Positions 4,964-49,803 of a stretch of DNA of 64,000 nt are shown here, one piece after another. Each line of letters starts with the position of its first letter. Positions within the stretch are counted from its first letter, which is position 1. The notes under the pieces were generated by a model. It was not told the DNA's origin. It ran no database searches and saw only the letters and a program-made list of their open reading frames with translations. The position numbers were made by a program, and so were the translations under genes. Origin of the DNA: Borrelia sp. RT5S. Its GTDB lineage: Bacteria > Spirochaetota > Spirochaetia > Borreliales > Borreliaceae. Location of the stretch: contig NZ_CP088936.1 of assembly GCF_021165755.1 (NCBI RefSeq), positions 744,001 to 808,000 on the forward strand. Direction: 5' to 3'.

Positions 4964-6172
4964 ATGCAAGGTGAGAACATGGTTTCAATCAGAGGTGGGA
5001 ATAGGAAAAAAATACTCCTTAGCTTGAAGAATATGCAATATTCAAGAACAGATTTAGCCCGTAGATTATCATTAACTAATGCTGCTGTTACAATTCTTAC
5101 TAATCAGATGATTAAGGAAAATATTTTAGTTGAAGTTGGGTCAAAGGAAACGGATATTAAGAAACATGGTCGGAAAGAGATACTTCTTGATATCAATAAA
5201 GATTTTGCATATTCAATGGGAGTAATTATCTCGAGTAATTATTTTCAAATAGGAATTGCGAATCTTAAATGTGAGGTTTTAATAAGTGAGATTTATTCTT
5301 TTGAACCTCCAGTTAGTGCTTATGAAATTTTGGAAAAAATTAAGGATCACATGATCGAGATTATATGGAAGCATAATTTTTCAAGGGATAAGTTTATAGG
5401 ATTAGGATTTAGTATTACTGGAATAATTAAGGATAAGGAATCTGGGATTGTTAATGATAGCCATGGAGCATGGGTTGAGAGAGATGTTCCTGTTAAGGCT
5501 ATACTGGAGGAATATTTTTCACTTACTGTATATCTTGAGAGCTATGTTAAAAATCTTTCTCTTGCTGAATTTATGGGTAAGAATGTGGATAATATCATGT
5601 TTTTTGATTACACAGATACTGCCGAGCTTTCCATTTGGTCTGAGGGTAATGTTTATTCTGGATTTAACAATAAATCTGGCATGGTTAGTCACATGGTTAT
5701 TGATTATGGAGGTGAGAAAAATTGTCCTACTTGTGGAAATAAGGGGTGTGTTAATATGCTAATATCCAATTTTGCTCTCCAGCGTTTAATATCGAAGGAG
5801 TTTATGAATGGGGAGATTCCTGAGCTTTATGACAAGTATGAAGGTAGACTTAAGAAGGTTACCATATATGATATTTTTTCTCTTCATGAAAAATATGGAT
5901 TTGTGAGAAAAATAATGGAGGATACAATAAAGTGCTTAGCAATAGTTATAATTAATATACAAAGAATTCTTGACTTTAATTATTTGGTGCTTTATGGGCA
6001 AAGTTTTAAGCTTAAGAGTTTTTTTGATTTATTAAAAGAGGAGATAAAGAAGTTAAATAAAGAGAGTATTGTGCTAAAGCTTAGTTCTCTTGACACGGAA
6101 GTGTCCGTTATAGGACCCGCATCTAGTGTTATTTTTAATAAGTTTTATTTAACGGGAGGAGATATTGATTAA
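4964..6172 (+). CDS. xylR: ROK-family transcriptional regulator (NagC/XylR-like)
   Basis: 402 residues. Residues 8-70 form a winged helix-turn-helix (RKKILLSLKNMQYSRTDLA followed by LTNAAVTILTNQMIKENIL). The remainder is the ROK sugar-kinase-like fold, with the zinc motif CPTCGNKGC near residue 257. Kinase signatures are missing: the phosphate-binding DxGGT loop reads SMGVIISSNYF, and the usual GExGH before the zinc site is absent. It therefore looks like a sugar-responsive regulator without kinase activity, as in NagC/XylR/Mlc. The ATG at 4964 follows GGGAGG by seven bases; ATG 4979 is an alternative. No sugar operon is adjacent, so the effector and targets are unknown. The gene name follows the Borrelia annotation and does not imply xylose. 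Confidence 0.8.
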   Translation: MQGENMVSIRGGNRKKILLSLKNMQYSRTDLARRLSLTNAAVTILTNQMIKENILVEVGSKETDIKKHGRKEILLDINKDFAYSMGVIISSNYFQIGIANLKCEVLISEIYSFEPPVSAYEILEKIKDHMIEIIWKHNFSRDKFIGLGFSITGIIKDKESGIVNDSHGAWVERDVPVKAILEEYFSLTVYLESYVKNLSLAEFMGKNVDNIMFFDYTDTAELSIWSEGNVYSGFNNKSGMVSHMVIDYGGEKNCPTCGNKGCVNMLISNFALQRLISKEFMNGEIPELYDKYEGRLKKVTIYDIFSLHEKYGFVRKIMEDTIKCLAIVIINIQRILDFNYLVLYGQSFKLKSFFDLLKEEIKKLNKESIVLKLSSLDTEVSVIGPASSVIFNKFYLTGGDID

Positions 6173-6230: not shown

Positions 6231-7580
6231 GTGTTTGGTGAGCTAGAGGCGGGTTTTAGGAATTTTGTAGCGTGTATCTCTGGAAAGTCTGTAATAAGTG
6301 AGAAGAATATTGAAGAGGCAGTGTGCATCATTAAGGATGCTTTAGTCGATGCTGATGTTAATTTGAGAGTTGTGAGGCGTTTTGTTAATGCTGTTGTGGA
6401 GGAGGCTAGGGGGGTTAAGGTTTTAAGGGGGGTCGATCCTGGATCTTATTTTATTAAGATTGTCAACGACAAGCTCGTAAGTTTTTTAGGTGATAGGCAC
6501 GCTGGGCTTGTTTTAAACCCTGTTAACAAGCAGTCTTATATTTTGATGGTTGGGCTTCAGGGGTCTGGAAAGACTACGACTTGTGTAAAACTTGCTATGC
6601 GCCTTAAAAGAGAGGGTAGGAAGGTCCTTCTTGTTGCTGGGGATACTTTTAGGGCTGCCGCAATTAGTCAGTTAAGGATCTTGGGTAATCAAATTGGTGT
6701 TTCTGTTTTTGCACTTGAGGGTGAAGCAGACCCTGTTGGGGTTGTTAGAGAAGCTGTTAAGTATGCTAAAGCGGAACTTTTCGACACTGTTGTAGTAGAT
6801 ACTAGAGGGCGTCTTGAGGTTGAGGAGTTATTGTTAAGAGAGATAAAAGAAATTAAAGAGATTCTACTTCCTGTGGAAACGATGTTGGTGGCAGATGCTA
6901 TGACGGGTCAGGTTGCTGCAAATATTGCCAAGGAATTTAATGATAGGGTTGGGATTACGGGTGTAATTTTTACGAAGTTTGACTCTGATGCTAGGGGTGG
7001 GGCAGTTATGTCGATTAAAACTATCTGTGGGATCCCTATTAAATTTGTGGGTGTTGGAGAAAAGCCGGAAGATATTGATATTTTTTATCCAGATAGAGTT
7101 GCTTCGCGAATTCTTGGCATGGGAGATGTTGTTAGTCTTGTTGAGAAAGCTCAAACTGTTATAGACAAGGAAGAAGCTTTAAAACTTGAAGAAAAGATTA
7201 GAAAGGATGGGTTTAATTTTGAAGACTATTTAAATCAATTTAAATACATGCGAGATATGGGTGGTATTTCCAGTTTGATGGGAATGCTTCCGAGCGTTTC
7301 TTCCGAAATGTTGAGCTCTAGGGTTAATGAAAGGGAGCTTAAAAGAGATGAGGCGATTATTTATTCTATGACCAGGAAAGAGAGGTTGAATCCTGTTTTT
7401 TTAAATAATCCTTCGAGAAAGAGGAGAATCGCCTTGGGGAGCGGAACAACAATTTTTGAGGTAAACAAGCTTATTAAAAAATTTAGTCAGACAATGTTGG
7501 CGATGAAAAAAATGAAAAATAAAAGCTTTCAAAATAAGATAGCATCTCTTTTGGGAGGAAAAGGAGGAATGATAAATTGA
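6231..7580 (+). CDS. ffh: Signal recognition particle GTPase Ffh (SRP54)
   Basis: About 449 residues. The N domain is followed by the G domain with [10 protein letters not shown] (about residues 106-115), [15 protein letters not shown] and the SRP-specific [15 protein letters not shown] methionine-rich M domain ends the protein ([15 protein letters not shown] and a C-terminal [10 protein letters not shown]). Ffh binds 4.5S RNA and signal sequences on ribosomes and docks to FtsY at the inner membrane. GTG 6231 is preferred because GAGGA at 6217-6221 is nine bases away; TTG at 6228 directly before it is the alternative. It opens a tightly packed block, with its stop overlapping the rpsP start. 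Confidence 0.95.
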
Positions 7581-7828
7581 GTGTTAGGATAAGATTGAAA
7601 AGGATGGGAGCAAAAAAAAGGCCTTATTATCGAATTGTGGTGATGGATTCTGCGTCGCCCAGGGATGGACGATCTATTGAAGAGCTTGGGTACTATCATC
7701 CTGTTGAGAAGCAAGACCAGGTTAAAATAAACGAGGATAGATTTGAAGATTGGGTAAGTAAGGGGGCTATTCCAAGTGATACAGTGAAGAGGCTTTTGAA
7801 TAAAAATAGATTTAAGGCGGAGAGTTAG
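7577..7828 (+). CDS. rpsP: Ribosomal protein bS16
   Basis: 83 residues with the standard S16 start [19 protein letters not shown] and [11 protein letters not shown], then the conserved LGYYHP. It is a small-subunit assembly protein. Translation starts at TTG 7577, inside the TTGA that also ends ffh, with a strong GGAGGAA 7563-7569 upstream; this four-base overlap suggests translational coupling to ffh. The gene order rpsP-khpA-rimM-trmD-rplS downstream is the classical bacterial arrangement. Confidence 0.97.
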
Positions 7829-7837
7829 GAGGGCTTA

Positions 7838-8086
7838 ATGAAAGAGTACGGTAATGAAATAGAACTTATCGAATTTGTGGTGAAATCTCTTGTGGATAAA
7901 CGGGATGAGGTTAAGTTGAATGTGGTTGAGGGGGAGAAGTCAACTATTTTGGAGTTGAGAGTTTCTACAAGTGATGTTGGAAAAATAATAGGAAGGAGGG
8001 GCCGCATTGCAAGAGCTATTAGGACATTGCTTAGTGCTTGCGCTGCAAAGACGAATAGGAGAGTTCAGTTAGAAATTTTGGACTAA
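7838..8086 (+). CDS. khpA: KH-domain RNA-binding protein KhpA
   Basis: 82 residues forming a single type II KH domain with the RNA-binding GxxG loop in VGKIIGRRGRIARAIR. KhpA-type proteins bind RNA, often with KhpB/Jag, and influence cell elongation and division in Gram-positive bacteria; the role in spirochetes is not established. It lies between rpsP and rimM, its usual place, ten bases after rpsP, with GGAGGG just upstream of its ATG. Confidence 0.9.
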   Translation: MKEYGNEIELIEFVVKSLVDKRDEVKLNVVEGEKSTILELRVSTSDVGKIIGRRGRIARAIRTLLSACAAKTNRRVQLEILD

Positions 8087-45819: not shown

Positions 45820-46605
45820 ATGCTTTTGTCTAGGAAAATAAAAGATTATGAGTCTAAGTATAGAGGCAAAGAAATTAAAATGAGTACCGAGATAAGCAGT
45901 TTTCTTAATATTAGAAATACTGTTGAGATGAGGGTCGGTAGCTATGTAGTGTATGGGGTTATTTATTCTGTTTCTATGAATAGTATTAAGATTATTTTTC
46001 AGGAAGATACAGTGTTGCCGACTTTAGGTAAAAACAAAAACACAGGGAATATTCAACTTAAAAGGTTTGATGATTTTGAAGATAATTCTTTTTTTATTCC
46101 ACCTTTATCTGTCAGATTGGCAAATACATCTGATTATCCTTCGCAAGAGAGGCATTACAATTTACTAACTTTAGATTTTCTATCTCCTATGCCAGAGGAG
46201 TTTGCTATTAAGGTTGGTAAGCTTCTAGATTTAAAGGTTGGGCAGAATCAAAGAATACATGAGCGTATTGTTGTTGATAAGGATTCACTTAGAAAACTTA
46301 AGCTTAACTCGGATAGGACTTTTATTGAATTTAACGGGATGAAGCATAAGTGCCTAATTAAAGACTTATCCTATGGAGGGGCGTTATTGATTTCTTATTT
46401 TGATTATGAGGAAGTGGAGGAGAAGGAAATTGACTTGGTCTTGAATTTTGACATTGAAGATAAGGAGGTGCTTATTAAGGGAAAAGCAAGGAATTTAAGT
46501 GTTATTCAGACTCCCAATGGCAAAGTTTTGGCTTTAGGTGTTGCCTTTTACGAGGAGGAAATTCCTCTTGAGTATACTATGCTAATCCATGATTATTTTA
46601 ATTAA
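45820..46605 (+). CDS. plzA: PilZ-domain c-di-GMP receptor PlzA
   Basis: 261 residues. A N-terminal PilZ-like domain (residues 1-135) lacks the c-di-GMP motif; the C-terminal PilZ domain has the RxxxR box in QRIHERIVVD (about 146-155) and the DxSxxG box in IKDLSYGGALL. This two-domain layout is that of Borrelia PlzA, the main c-di-GMP effector in the genus, affecting motility, virulence and glycerol genes (established knowledge). It has a strong AAGGAG ribosome site and stands alone between divergent ponA and the lipoprotein pair. Confidence 0.95.
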   Translation: MLLSRKIKDYESKYRGKEIKMSTEISSFLNIRNTVEMRVGSYVVYGVIYSVSMNSIKIIFQEDTVLPTLGKNKNTGNIQLKRFDDFEDNSFFIPPLSVRLANTSDYPSQERHYNLLTLDFLSPMPEEFAIKVGKLLDLKVGQNQRIHERIVVDKDSLRKLKLNSDRTFIEFNGMKHKCLIKDLSYGGALLISYFDYEEVEEKEIDLVLNFDIEDKEVLIKGKARNLSVIQTPNGKVLALGVAFYEEEIPLEYTMLIHDYFN

Positions 46606-47026
46606 AAATTTGTGTTTGCAAAGACTAGGCGTGTTTCACACAATAGCATGCTATAGTGAGTGATGAACTCATCCCCTTGCTGGCTTTAGTGAGTTTGTTG
46701 TTGATTGAATAGCTAAGGGCGCGCGATCCCCGATTTCCTTGCTACTTATGCTTTGCAAGTATTTGTTTATGCGTCTTTTCAGAGTCTAAAAACTTCTTTT
46801 ACATATCCTAAGCCTATTTTGCCGTACTTGTTCTCTATGTTGCTAGCTTCATAGGGACAATGAGGAGGGTTTGCAAGAAGAAGAACTTTACTTAAGGTTT
46901 GATTTTTGCTACGTTTTATCACCAAGACTTTACTCTTAGAATTTAGTTTTTTGTTGTCCTTGTTCCTAACTTGTTTATTGTTTGTTATGAAGTACCTTTA
47001 AATAGACAGGAGAGGTGTGTTTTTCT
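46606..47026. other. Intergenic region before the lipoprotein pair, 421 bases
   Basis: No gene is seen. It contains a perfect 12-base palindrome ATAGCATGCTAT at 46643-46654 and, at 46975-47002, a 28-base block repeated with two mismatches at 47847-47874 before the second lipoprotein gene. The composition (GCGCGCGATCCCCG near 46716) is more GC-rich than the neighbours in places. The promoter of the first lipoprotein is probably in its last 150 bases. Confidence 0.55.
46975..47002 (+). repeat. Upstream direct repeat, copy 1 (copy 2 at 47847-47874)
   Basis: A 28-base segment (TTATTGTTTG, then TATGAAGTAC and TTTAAA) lies 25 bases before the first lipoprotein ATG. The same segment with two substitutions (T to C, C to G) lies at 47847-47874, 22 bases before the second ATG; both are followed by a GGAGAGGTGT ribosome-binding sequence. 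The duplication therefore included the leader, so both genes may share regulation. Confidence 0.85.
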
Positions 47027-47785
47027 ATGGGAATAAGAGTAATAAGTATTTTACTATTGATGTTGTTTATTGGTAGCTGTAAGTGGTGGTTTGAAGCTGA
47101 AACTGAAGGTGAGGTTTTAGTTAAACCTCTAGAGGACATTAAGGTTGTAGCTACACGGGCTGTTGAGGAGGTTAGCAAGGCTACTGGTAGGTCTGCTGCT
47201 GAGGTTAAGGCTTTAAGTAAAGAGGATCTTGACAAGTTTGCTCTTGACGCTAAGAGTAGTGCTGATGCGACCTTCGAGATCACCAAGGATAGCAAGAATA
47301 ATAAGAAGAAATCTGAGTTTATTGATGAGATTAAGAAGTCAGCTGGTAAGCTTGATCTAGCTTTCAAGTCATTAGTTGGTGCTGGTTATACTGGTCCGAT
47401 TGCGGGTCCTGTTATAAGCAATATTGAGAGTGCTTTAAAGAATTTGGAGTTAGCAAAAAAGCTAGCTGAAATGGCTGAGAGCGGTAATCCTAATACGCTT
47501 GAGGATGCTAAGAAAGCAGTGCAGGCGCTTGGTGGTAATACGGGGTCTTGTGTAAGCAACCTTAGTTCTAAGAATGGTTATTCAGAACCGGTAAAGAACG
47601 GCCTTAACGATTGTGTTAAAAACCTTATGGACCGTGTAAACTCAAATTTTGAGAGGGGTGTTCGTGATCAGCTATACAATGATAATTTGAAAGACGTGCC
47701 TCCTAAGTTTAAGGACGCCTTTGATACCCTACGGGTTGCGGCTCACTCTATGAGTCAGGCTGCATCTAAGGTTCAGTTTAAGTAG
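47027..47785 (+). CDS. Putative lipoprotein, paralogue A of a tandem pair
   Basis: 252 residues from ATG 47027; an in-frame GTG 47015 overlaps the GGAGAGGTG ribosome site and is rejected. The signal peptide ends in the relaxed Borrelia lipobox LFIGSC with Cys18, then KWW. The mature protein is helical, Ala/Lys/Glu-rich, with EEVSKATGRSAAEVKAL, KKKSEFIDEIKKSAGKLDLAFKSLVGAG and two cysteines in GSCVSNL and LNDCVKNL. It is clearly paralogous to the next gene (same length). The helical fold resembles several Borrelia surface lipoprotein families, but I cannot name one. Outer-surface location and host interaction are inference. Confidence 0.8.
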   Translation: MGIRVISILLLMLFIGSCKWWFEAETEGEVLVKPLEDIKVVATRAVEEVSKATGRSAAEVKALSKEDLDKFALDAKSSADATFEITKDSKNNKKKSEFIDEIKKSAGKLDLAFKSLVGAGYTGPIAGPVISNIESALKNLELAKKLAEMAESGNPNTLEDAKKAVQALGGNTGSCVSNLSSKNGYSEPVKNGLNDCVKNLMDRVNSNFERGVRDQLYNDNLKDVPPKFKDAFDTLRVAAHSMSQAASKVQFK

Positions 47786-47895
47786 TTAGTTAAGTTTTTG
47801 ATTTCATCGCTGACGCTAGGTTTAGCGTTTAGTTCCTTGCTATTGCTTATTGTTTGCTATGAAGTACGTTTAAAGAAAGGGAGAGGTGTCGTGTC

Positions 47896-48654
47896 ATGCA
47901 AGTAAGAGTGGTGGGTATTTTGCTATTGATGTTGTTTTTTGGCAGTTGTAAGTGGTGGAGTAAAGCTGAGACAGTAGATAAGGATGGGGCCGAGGTCGTT
48001 CAAGATGACCCTGAGGTCGTAGCAGAAAGGGCGGCTGAGGAAGTAAGCAAGGCTACTGGCAAGTCTGTAGCTGAGGTTAAGTCTTTAGGTAAGGATGATC
48101 TTGATAAGATTGCTGCAGCAGCTAAGGATAGTGCTGAGGCGACCGCTAAAAGTGCTGAGAGTAATAATAAGAAGAAATCTGAGTTTATTGAGGAGATTAA
48201 GCAGTCAGCTAGTAAGCTTGATTTAGCTTTCAAGTCTTTAGTTGCTGCTGGCCACCGCAGTGGTGCTGTGAATCCTGTGATAGGTAATATGAAGATTGTT
48301 TTTAAGAGGTTGGAGTTAGCTGATAAGCTGGCTGGTATGCTAGAGAATGGTAGTGGCAATACAGTAGGAGAGGTTGGGAAGGAAGTAGAAGCCGTTGGTG
48401 CTGCTGCCTTTTGTATGAGTGCTATTAAAGAGGAGCAGGGTAGTAATAAAGAAACAAAAGTAACGGAAGATAGACTTAAGGAATGTTTTAATAATCTTGT
48501 TGGTAGTATAGGCAATCTATTAGTTGAGGGCGTTCAAAAGCCGTTACAGCCTGCTATAGAAGGTGCACCTGAAAAGTTTAAAGATGCCTTGAGGAACCTA
48601 TGGATTGCAGCCCTCATGTTTCAAAGAGCATTAATAAAGGTTAAAGCTAGGTAA
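47896..48654 (+). CDS. Putative lipoprotein, paralogue B of a tandem pair
   Basis: 252 residues from ATG 47896 with lipobox LFFGSC, Cys18, followed by KWW as in its neighbour. The first 120 residues share long identical stretches with paralogue A (EEVSKATG, NNKKKSEFI, KLDLAFKSLV); the C-terminal half has diverged but keeps the two cysteines (AFCMSAI, LKECFNNL) and the EKFKDAL/PKFKDAF segment. Codon use matches the chromosome. The 110-base spacer and leader repeat point to tandem gene duplication. Function unknown. It ends 20 bases before the convergent sua5 gene. Confidence 0.8.
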   Translation: MQVRVVGILLLMLFFGSCKWWSKAETVDKDGAEVVQDDPEVVAERAAEEVSKATGKSVAEVKSLGKDDLDKIAAAAKDSAEATAKSAESNNKKKSEFIEEIKQSASKLDLAFKSLVAAGHRSGAVNPVIGNMKIVFKRLELADKLAGMLENGSGNTVGEVGKEVEAVGAAAFCMSAIKEEQGSNKETKVTEDRLKECFNNLVGSIGNLLVEGVQKPLQPAIEGAPEKFKDALRNLWIAALMFQRALIKVKAR

Positions 48655-48674
48655 TACTGATTTTTCTTGTTCAG

Positions 48675-49676
48675 TTAAATAGAAACGAATTTGTGCAGGC
48701 TAGCTTTGGAAAGTCTATTATTAATTGAGTAGCCAAGCCCATGGTTGTGTGTGTACTCTGCAATTATTTGTTTGTAGGCTCTCTCAGAAGCGACAAATTC
48801 TTTGTACAAGTTAGCAGCATACTCATCCAGTGTGTCATAGACGCACATGTTTTCTACAAGCCTAAACTTGTTAAACCAATATGAATTAAGTGTGTCTTTT
48901 GTAATAAGTATTTTTGTGGCCCTGTCTAGAAAATATTTCCTTATGTTATCTTGCCTCCTAAATAAATAAACAGGTATACGTGGTCTGTAGTGCTCTAGTA
49001 AATTACCAGGAGACGCGGCCGTCTCTTCTGCTGCAGCATAATCTACACTAAACTCGTACCCAAGAGCCCCCTGTATTGCCTCTCTTGTAATAAAACCTGG
49101 ACGCAATATTAGTACATCCCCAGTGTTGGTGAAGCTTACAACAGTTGATTCTATTCCAATGCTTGAGCACCCCCCATGCTTAATTATTCCTCTAACTAGT
49201 CCATTAAGCTCTTTGCTTGCCATAGAAAAATTGGTAGTGCTGGGGCGTCTTGACAGATTGGCAGAAGGGGCTGCTATTGGAACACCACTTGTCCTAATTA
49301 AGCTTAATGCTACAGGATGGCTTGGTATCCTTACTGCAATGCTGCTAAGGCCACCGCATACAAATCTAGACACCCGCCCTGCATTCTTAAGTACAAATGT
49401 CATGGGGCCTGGAGTAAATCTTTGCATCAAGCGCTCTGCACTCCGAGGAACATAGGCTGCAAGCTCTCTTATCCTCTCTATTGAGTCAACATGCACTATT
49501 AATGGGTTGGTAATGGGGCGCATCTTGACTGCAAAGATCATACTAACAGCAGCACCATTGTATGCATTAGCTCCAAGCCCATACACTGTTTCCGTTGGAA
49601 ACACCACCAGCTCACCTTCTTTTATAAGTCGTGCTGCTCTTTCTATATCATCACATTCTATTAACTCGGTCTTCAT
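48675..49676 (-). CDS. sua5: Threonylcarbamoyl-AMP synthase Sua5 (TsaC family)
   Basis: About 333 residues from the preferred ATG 49676; open reading continues to an ATG at 49772 that would add 32 unusual residues. The YrdC domain has FPTETVYGLGANA, the KxR in AVKMRPITNPLIVHV and the SAN motif in PIAAPSANLS. GGCSSIGIESTVV and the LRPG segment close the nucleotide site. The C-terminal extension (LEHYRPRIPVYLFRR and on) is the Sua5 domain, distinguishing it from short TsaC. It makes threonylcarbamoyl-AMP for t6A37 on ANN-decoding tRNAs. The start remains uncertain. Confidence 0.9.
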   Translation of the reverse strand: MKTELIECDDIERAARLIKEGELVVFPTETVYGLGANAYNGAAVSMIFAVKMRPITNPLIVHVDSIERIRELAAYVPRSAERLMQRFTPGPMTFVLKNAGRVSRFVCGGLSSIAVRIPSHPVALSLIRTSGVPIAAPSANLSRRPSTTNFSMASKELNGLVRGIIKHGGCSSIGIESTVVSFTNTGDVLILRPGFITREAIQGALGYEFSVDYAAAEETAASPGNLLEHYRPRIPVYLFRRQDNIRKYFLDRATKILITKDTLNSYWFNKFRLVENMCVYDTLDEYAANLYKEFVASERAYKQIIAEYTHNHGLGYSINNRLSKASLHKFVSI

Positions 49677-49803
49677 TGTCTCAGCTTCATGCCCTCTGCT
49701 CTTTTGTAAAATCCTTAATCTGTTGCTCATTAAGTCACTTTTCATTGAAGCAAAAAATTTGCAAATAAGCAATTTGTGGTTAGCGTTCAGCCTAATTTTT
49801 CTA

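Follow-up and report, generated by a model that had tools for sequence, protein, structure and literature searches.

BBK07 of Borrelia burgdorferi is a known member of the lipoprotein family considered here. Published accounts describe it as surface exposed and immunodominant in infected hosts (PMC3303823, PMC5816631, PMC10470944), it is used as an antigen in Lyme serodiagnosis (PMC5816631), and it has been said to have no homologs in relapsing-fever species (PMC4769344). The Borrelia chromosome has been described as almost fully syntenic, and the paper on the genomes under study, which traces strain RT5S to a tick on a water monitor lizard, lists chromosomal insertions and does not name in its main text one between plzA and sua5 (PMC10481545). 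We have analysed a stretch of 64,000 nucleotides (the window, to which unqualified positions refer) from the 942,663 bp chromosome of Borrelia salvatorii RT5S, which carries two lipoprotein genes, lpA and lpB, in precisely that interval. Our preferred explanation, which taken as a whole we hold at a probability of roughly 0.7, is that these genes belong to the BBK07 family, are most likely surface-displayed, and would have reached the chromosome from a plasmid by recombination in sua5.

The lpA and lpB genes and their family

The left neighbour of the pair, plzA (45820-46605, forward strand), encodes a PilZ-type c-di-GMP receptor (PilZN3, E=5e-34) with orthologs in 18 of the 18 Borrelia-genus genomes examined, and the right neighbour is an intact sua5 (48675-49682, reverse strand), encoding L-threonylcarbamoyladenylate synthase (Pfam Sua5_yciO_yrdC, E=5e-55, and Sua5_C). 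Between them, on the forward strand, lie lpA (ATG at 47027, stop at 47785) and lpB (47896-48654 from its ATG), each a BBK07-family lipoprotein of 252 residues lipidated at C18, as assigned from reading frame, alignment and tree and, for lpB, also from structure prediction. These coordinates and the Pfam matches of the neighbours bear out a sequence-only reading of this DNA, which had proposed two 252-residue lipoprotein genes at this place. The GC content of lpA, lpB and sua5 is 42-43%, compared with 35% for the whole window. Both proteins have a spirochaetal lipobox ending in GSC18KWW, in which the lipidated C18 is invariant across a 27-member family alignment, as well as two further conserved cysteines (C173 and C197 in lpB), so that the SCKWW start and the cysteine pair noticed earlier are indeed present. 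The overall identity between lpA and lpB is about 48-50% (BLASTP over 256 columns, E=2e-63) and is unevenly distributed, with 31/48, 31/48 and 30/50 matches along lpA residues 1-150 (~60-65%) and only 16/49 and 15/49 along residues 151-250 (~30%), in agreement with the divergence of the C-terminal halves that had been claimed.

Each gene is preceded by a related leader. Leader A (46971-47002, forward strand), the putative promoter region of lpA, is 91% identical to leader B of lpB (47843-47874, forward strand), the repeat being of 32 nt with 3 mismatches and containing the 28-base repeat first noticed. However, the earlier view of a duplicated leader does not hold, as this is the ordinary family leader, present upstream of most plasmid copies across the clade. 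A weak terminator-like hairpin in the gap between the genes (47808-47827, forward strand) is not above shuffle expectation, and promoter and terminator scans of the locus likewise returned signals at shuffle expectation.

The relationship to BBK07 was established with a family profile built from reptile-clade and relapsing-fever members, with the Lyme sequences left out. In the Lyme group its best match, over nearly the whole model with E=4e-47, is a 250-residue B. burgdorferi lipoprotein (G021:C18:5297-6022), located on lp36 of strain B31 at 5288-6040; since the published BBK07 diagnostic 17-mer SEKITKLTPEELENLAK (PMC5816631) is found verbatim in it, this protein is BBK07. Pairwise comparison with BBK07 gives 26-30% identity for lpA and lpB (26% and BLASTP E=3e-14 for lpA) and 39% for the B. 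turicatae member (E=1e-42). A paralog of BBK07 lies on lp36 at 7335-8033 (WP_044283619), which we take to be BBK12. As judged from these sequence comparisons, lpA and lpB are with certainty distant members of the BBK07 family. The locus had been presented as undescribed, a description that fails because its Lyme members are BBK07 and the lp36 paralog, and the match to a characterised lipoprotein family that had been named as counter-evidence is found in part, the relation to BBK07 being certain yet distant (26% identity). Searches of Pfam and NCBIfam with lpA, lpB and all 27 family members gave chance-level and mutually unrelated matches only, a PDB sequence search gave no credible match (the one match at E=5e-6 covers 31 residues of a chain named CAP REPEAT), and no relative was found in the viral contigs and phage collection searched. 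As a separate observation, the BBK07 epitope (residues 53-69; L152:4501-5253) sits on one of the most conserved motifs of the family, and its B. turicatae counterpart shares 6 of the 17 residues.

Distribution of the family and plasmid relatives of the pair

Family copies are numerous in reptile-associated Borrelia, where arrays of them are found on phage-like plasmids, and monitor-lizard Borrelia have about 10 per genome. In RT5S the chromosome carries two, lp44 six (including one that is shortened) and lp83 one; RT1S has copies on lp51 and lp83, 'Ca. B. rubricentralis' on cp32-B, lp74 and the chromosome, and B. turcica on lp129, in a tandem array after nrdF, with none between its chromosomal plzA and sua5. 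A plasmid location is thus common in the family without defining it, most other members being on plasmids, unlike lpA and lpB. The megaplasmids of several relapsing-fever species carry a single copy near the left end, beside CRASP genes; that of B. hermsii looks broken, as it gives only partial, divided matches and the annotation has no corresponding gene on that strand. By sequence similarity, the BBK07 family is one that spans Lyme, relapsing-fever and reptile-associated Borrelia, and the statement that BBK07 has no relapsing-fever homologs (PMC4769344) is contradicted by the intact homologs of several relapsing-fever species. The range of the family is much broader than the literature suggests, and lpA and lpB add two members to a known family, at an unusual location. 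The relapsing-fever homologs and the many copies of the monitor-lizard genomes bear on the specificity and function of BBK07, given the age of the family and its expansion on phage-like plasmids.

In the family tree lpA groups with lp44/lp51 plasmid genes, the closest of which is 70% identical to it, while lpB pairs with rubr_cp32B_24395 of 'Ca. B. rubricentralis' cp32-B (support 100/100, 58% identity, its closest relative) and the chromosomal gene of 'Ca. B. rubricentralis' pairs with rubr_cp32B_28907 (support 100/100). Since each of the two groups with plasmid genes, lpA and lpB are not local duplicates, and by this phylogeny the term tandem pair is a description of position. If a single chromosomal lipoprotein gene had been duplicated locally along with its leader, this would account for two genes on the same strand with similar leaders and 48% identity; however, the plasmid relatives are nearer (70% for lpA and 58% for lpB, against 50% between the two), the pairing of lpB with cp32-B has full support and the leader is common to plasmid copies across the clade, which makes such a duplication highly improbable. 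From the earlier proposal of a tandem paralogous pair, the paralogy is retained and the local duplication is not.

The sua5 stub and evidence for plasmid-chromosome exchange

The interval between plzA and sua5 differs among Borrelia. A lipoprotein gene is missing from it in the Lyme species examined, in line with the sequence-only reading, as well as in B. turcica, 'Ca. B. undatumii' (BU AG58) and genome G011; in 'Ca. B. rubricentralis' it holds one family gene, 93% identical to cp32-B over 365 bp, and in relapsing-fever species an unrelated TPR gene. The latter, of 370 residues (L021:2270-3388 and equivalents), overlaps the 3' end of plzA, fills the interval and is absent from the Lyme and reptile-clade genomes examined. 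The gene sua5 serves a tRNA modification which many bacteria cannot do without. In genome G015 (L113:3885-4211) the chromosomal sua5 is cut to 108 residues, and no other full copy was found there.

Beside plzA, at 46679-46818 on the reverse strand and thus in the same orientation as sua5, lies the decayed 3' end of an older sua5, a stub of about 140 bp recognised by local alignment, with frame matches interrupted by 4 stops. When it is aligned to native sua5 3' ends from related species, the four best scores are 33-40 and shuffled sequences reach at most 17-21; with the present RT5S sua5 it scores lower, at 20-24. In 'Ca. B. rubricentralis' the corresponding stub scores 25, only just over the 21 reached by chance. 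Following the RT5S stub, about 130 bp (46810-46939) match an oppositely oriented segment of 'Ca. B. rubricentralis' at 68%, possibly a small inversion.

The intact sua5 has a counterpart on plasmid lp44, which is phage-like in carrying terminase, portal, tape measure and ParA genes. The shared block (48669-49700, reverse strand) is 97.5% identical and shows a single difference over 49023-49637 (~615 bp), whereas in 100-bp bins the sua5 of the sister species is 12-26% divergent; from this contrast, the copying of sua5 between lp44 and the chromosome is recent. The end of the lp44 array also has the same junction as the chromosome, with a lipoprotein gene and sua5 converging. In RT1S, lp51 has only a 3' piece of sua5 of about 300 bp, beside its array, and over that stretch lp44 is a mosaic, agreeing at 12 sites with lp51 against the chromosome and at 20 sites with the chromosome against lp51. 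Since sua5 is adjoined by lpB on the chromosome and by a relative of lpA on lp44, the donor is not any one of the present-day plasmid segments. As to direction, the sua5 of lp44 may itself have been copied from the chromosome. The notion that the present RT5S sua5 is a xenologous plasmid gene was considered and is not supported, as, along the gene, its similarity to other species is broadly in keeping with the species order. Copies of sua5 recur on Borrelia plasmids: that of B31 lp5 (L155:3340-4332) is intact and adjoins a P52 family lipoprotein, and the phage-like lp32-B of B. turcica (L110:4339-5165) has a broken one beside a possible distant BBK07-family protein (hhalign probability 85%).

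The arrangement of stub, cargo and intact sua5 is the scar expected from a single-crossover integration in sua5. In the mechanism we propose, the donor would be a phage-like plasmid with an array of BBK07-family genes beside a sua5 3' end, and homologous recombination between its sua5 and the chromosomal one would have placed the lipoprotein genes between plzA and sua5, leaving the old 3' end to decay beside plzA and an intact, hybrid sua5 on the far side of the cargo. We infer that a circular plasmid integrated by a single crossover (Campbell-type) and that most of it was then lost. Later exchange would have affected sua5 in RT5S and, in 'Ca. B. rubricentralis', the lipoprotein gene, and in the latter species the identity of 93% between the interval gene and cp32-B indicates that exchange continued. 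Taken together, sequence comparison gives good evidence for plasmid-chromosome exchange, and the position of lpA and lpB would be explained by sua5.

The lp44 block can also be understood in the opposite sense, namely that the chromosome acquired a lipoprotein gene by another route and later passed a copy of the lipoprotein-sua5 block on to phage-like plasmids. This would agree with the sharp end of the lp44 block just upstream of the gene (near 49700), with the chromosome-like main body of that block and with the sua5 pseudogene also present on B. turcica lp32-B. We consider it unlikely, as the copies on plasmids greatly exceed the chromosomal ones in number and diversity, and the latter fall among them at three distinct points of the tree. 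In addition, the stub beside plzA requires insertion into or beside an existing sua5, and in B. turcica the family is present on lp129 but not at the chromosomal site. A plasmid origin through sua5 thus remains our preferred explanation, and the scar would represent a concrete route for plasmid genes into an almost fully syntenic chromosome. A broader possibility, which we regard as rather doubtful, is that sua5 serves time and again as a port for recombination between phage-plasmids and the rigid chromosome, through which the BBK07-family array would feed variants into a chromosomal expression site; to our knowledge, such slow renewal of antigens from plasmid to chromosome has no description in Borrelia.

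Probable surface display, regulation and comparison with known lipoproteins

The structure predicted for lpB (pLDDT 77.7) is helical from residue 39 on and has a disordered N-terminal tether, the mature protein being a predicted helical bundle. Each of the two proteins would accordingly be anchored by a lipid at Cys18 and joined through about 20 flexible residues to a mature domain that is entirely helical and variable in its C-terminal half. Fold searches returned helical-bundle background only, with a best Foldseek E of 0.18, and a VIA-align Z of 12.6 to designed four-helix bundles is within the range of common helical arrangements. By homology with BBK07 as described in the published accounts (PMC3303823, PMC10470944), lpA and lpB are likely to lie on the cell surface, open to antibody, so that the surface role suggested earlier is plausible, and the fact that the C-terminal half is the most variable fits antigenic or ligand diversification.

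The same sequence-only reading had placed this surface locus under possible influence of c-di-GMP, through the receptor PlzA encoded next to it. The adjacency to plzA is all that speaks for such control; however, plzA adjoins the pair because sua5 does, the same leaders precede plasmid copies without plzA nearby, and a search of the locus for a c-di-GMP riboswitch or other RNA elements was negative, with all Rfam matches far below gathering scores. Considering that no RNA element is present, that the leaders are of the family type and that the position is set by sua5, control by c-di-GMP is unsupported and we regard it as very improbable.

When compared with known lipoproteins, the family resembles the CRASP, P35-like and Chi lipoproteins in that these are plasmid-borne helical surface lipoproteins, and in relapsing-fever species they are neighbours. 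Membership in the CRASP/P35-like group (PFam54) was nevertheless rejected, as hhalign of A1 against six CRASP-type proteins gave a probability of 5% and the Pfam CRASP model has no match in the family members. The relapsing-fever homologs (B. turicatae lp158, B. parkeri, B. puertoricensis and B. venezuelensis) are family members of about 260 residues, intact and 38-40% identical to BBK07; they differ from lpA and lpB in being present in one copy with CRASP neighbours, in the absence of the first extra cysteine and in being annotated as hypothetical only. BBK07 and its lp36 paralog share with lpA and lpB a lipobox followed by Cys-Lys-Trp, a length of 250-252 residues and the motifs TGxxxxExKxLSxEELxKIA and CxKxLMxxV. 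The differences are that BBK07 is located on lp36 and is reported as a proven immunodominant antigen (PMC3303823, PMC5816631), whereas lpA and lpB are chromosomal, are only 26-30% identical to it and have an extra conserved cysteine.
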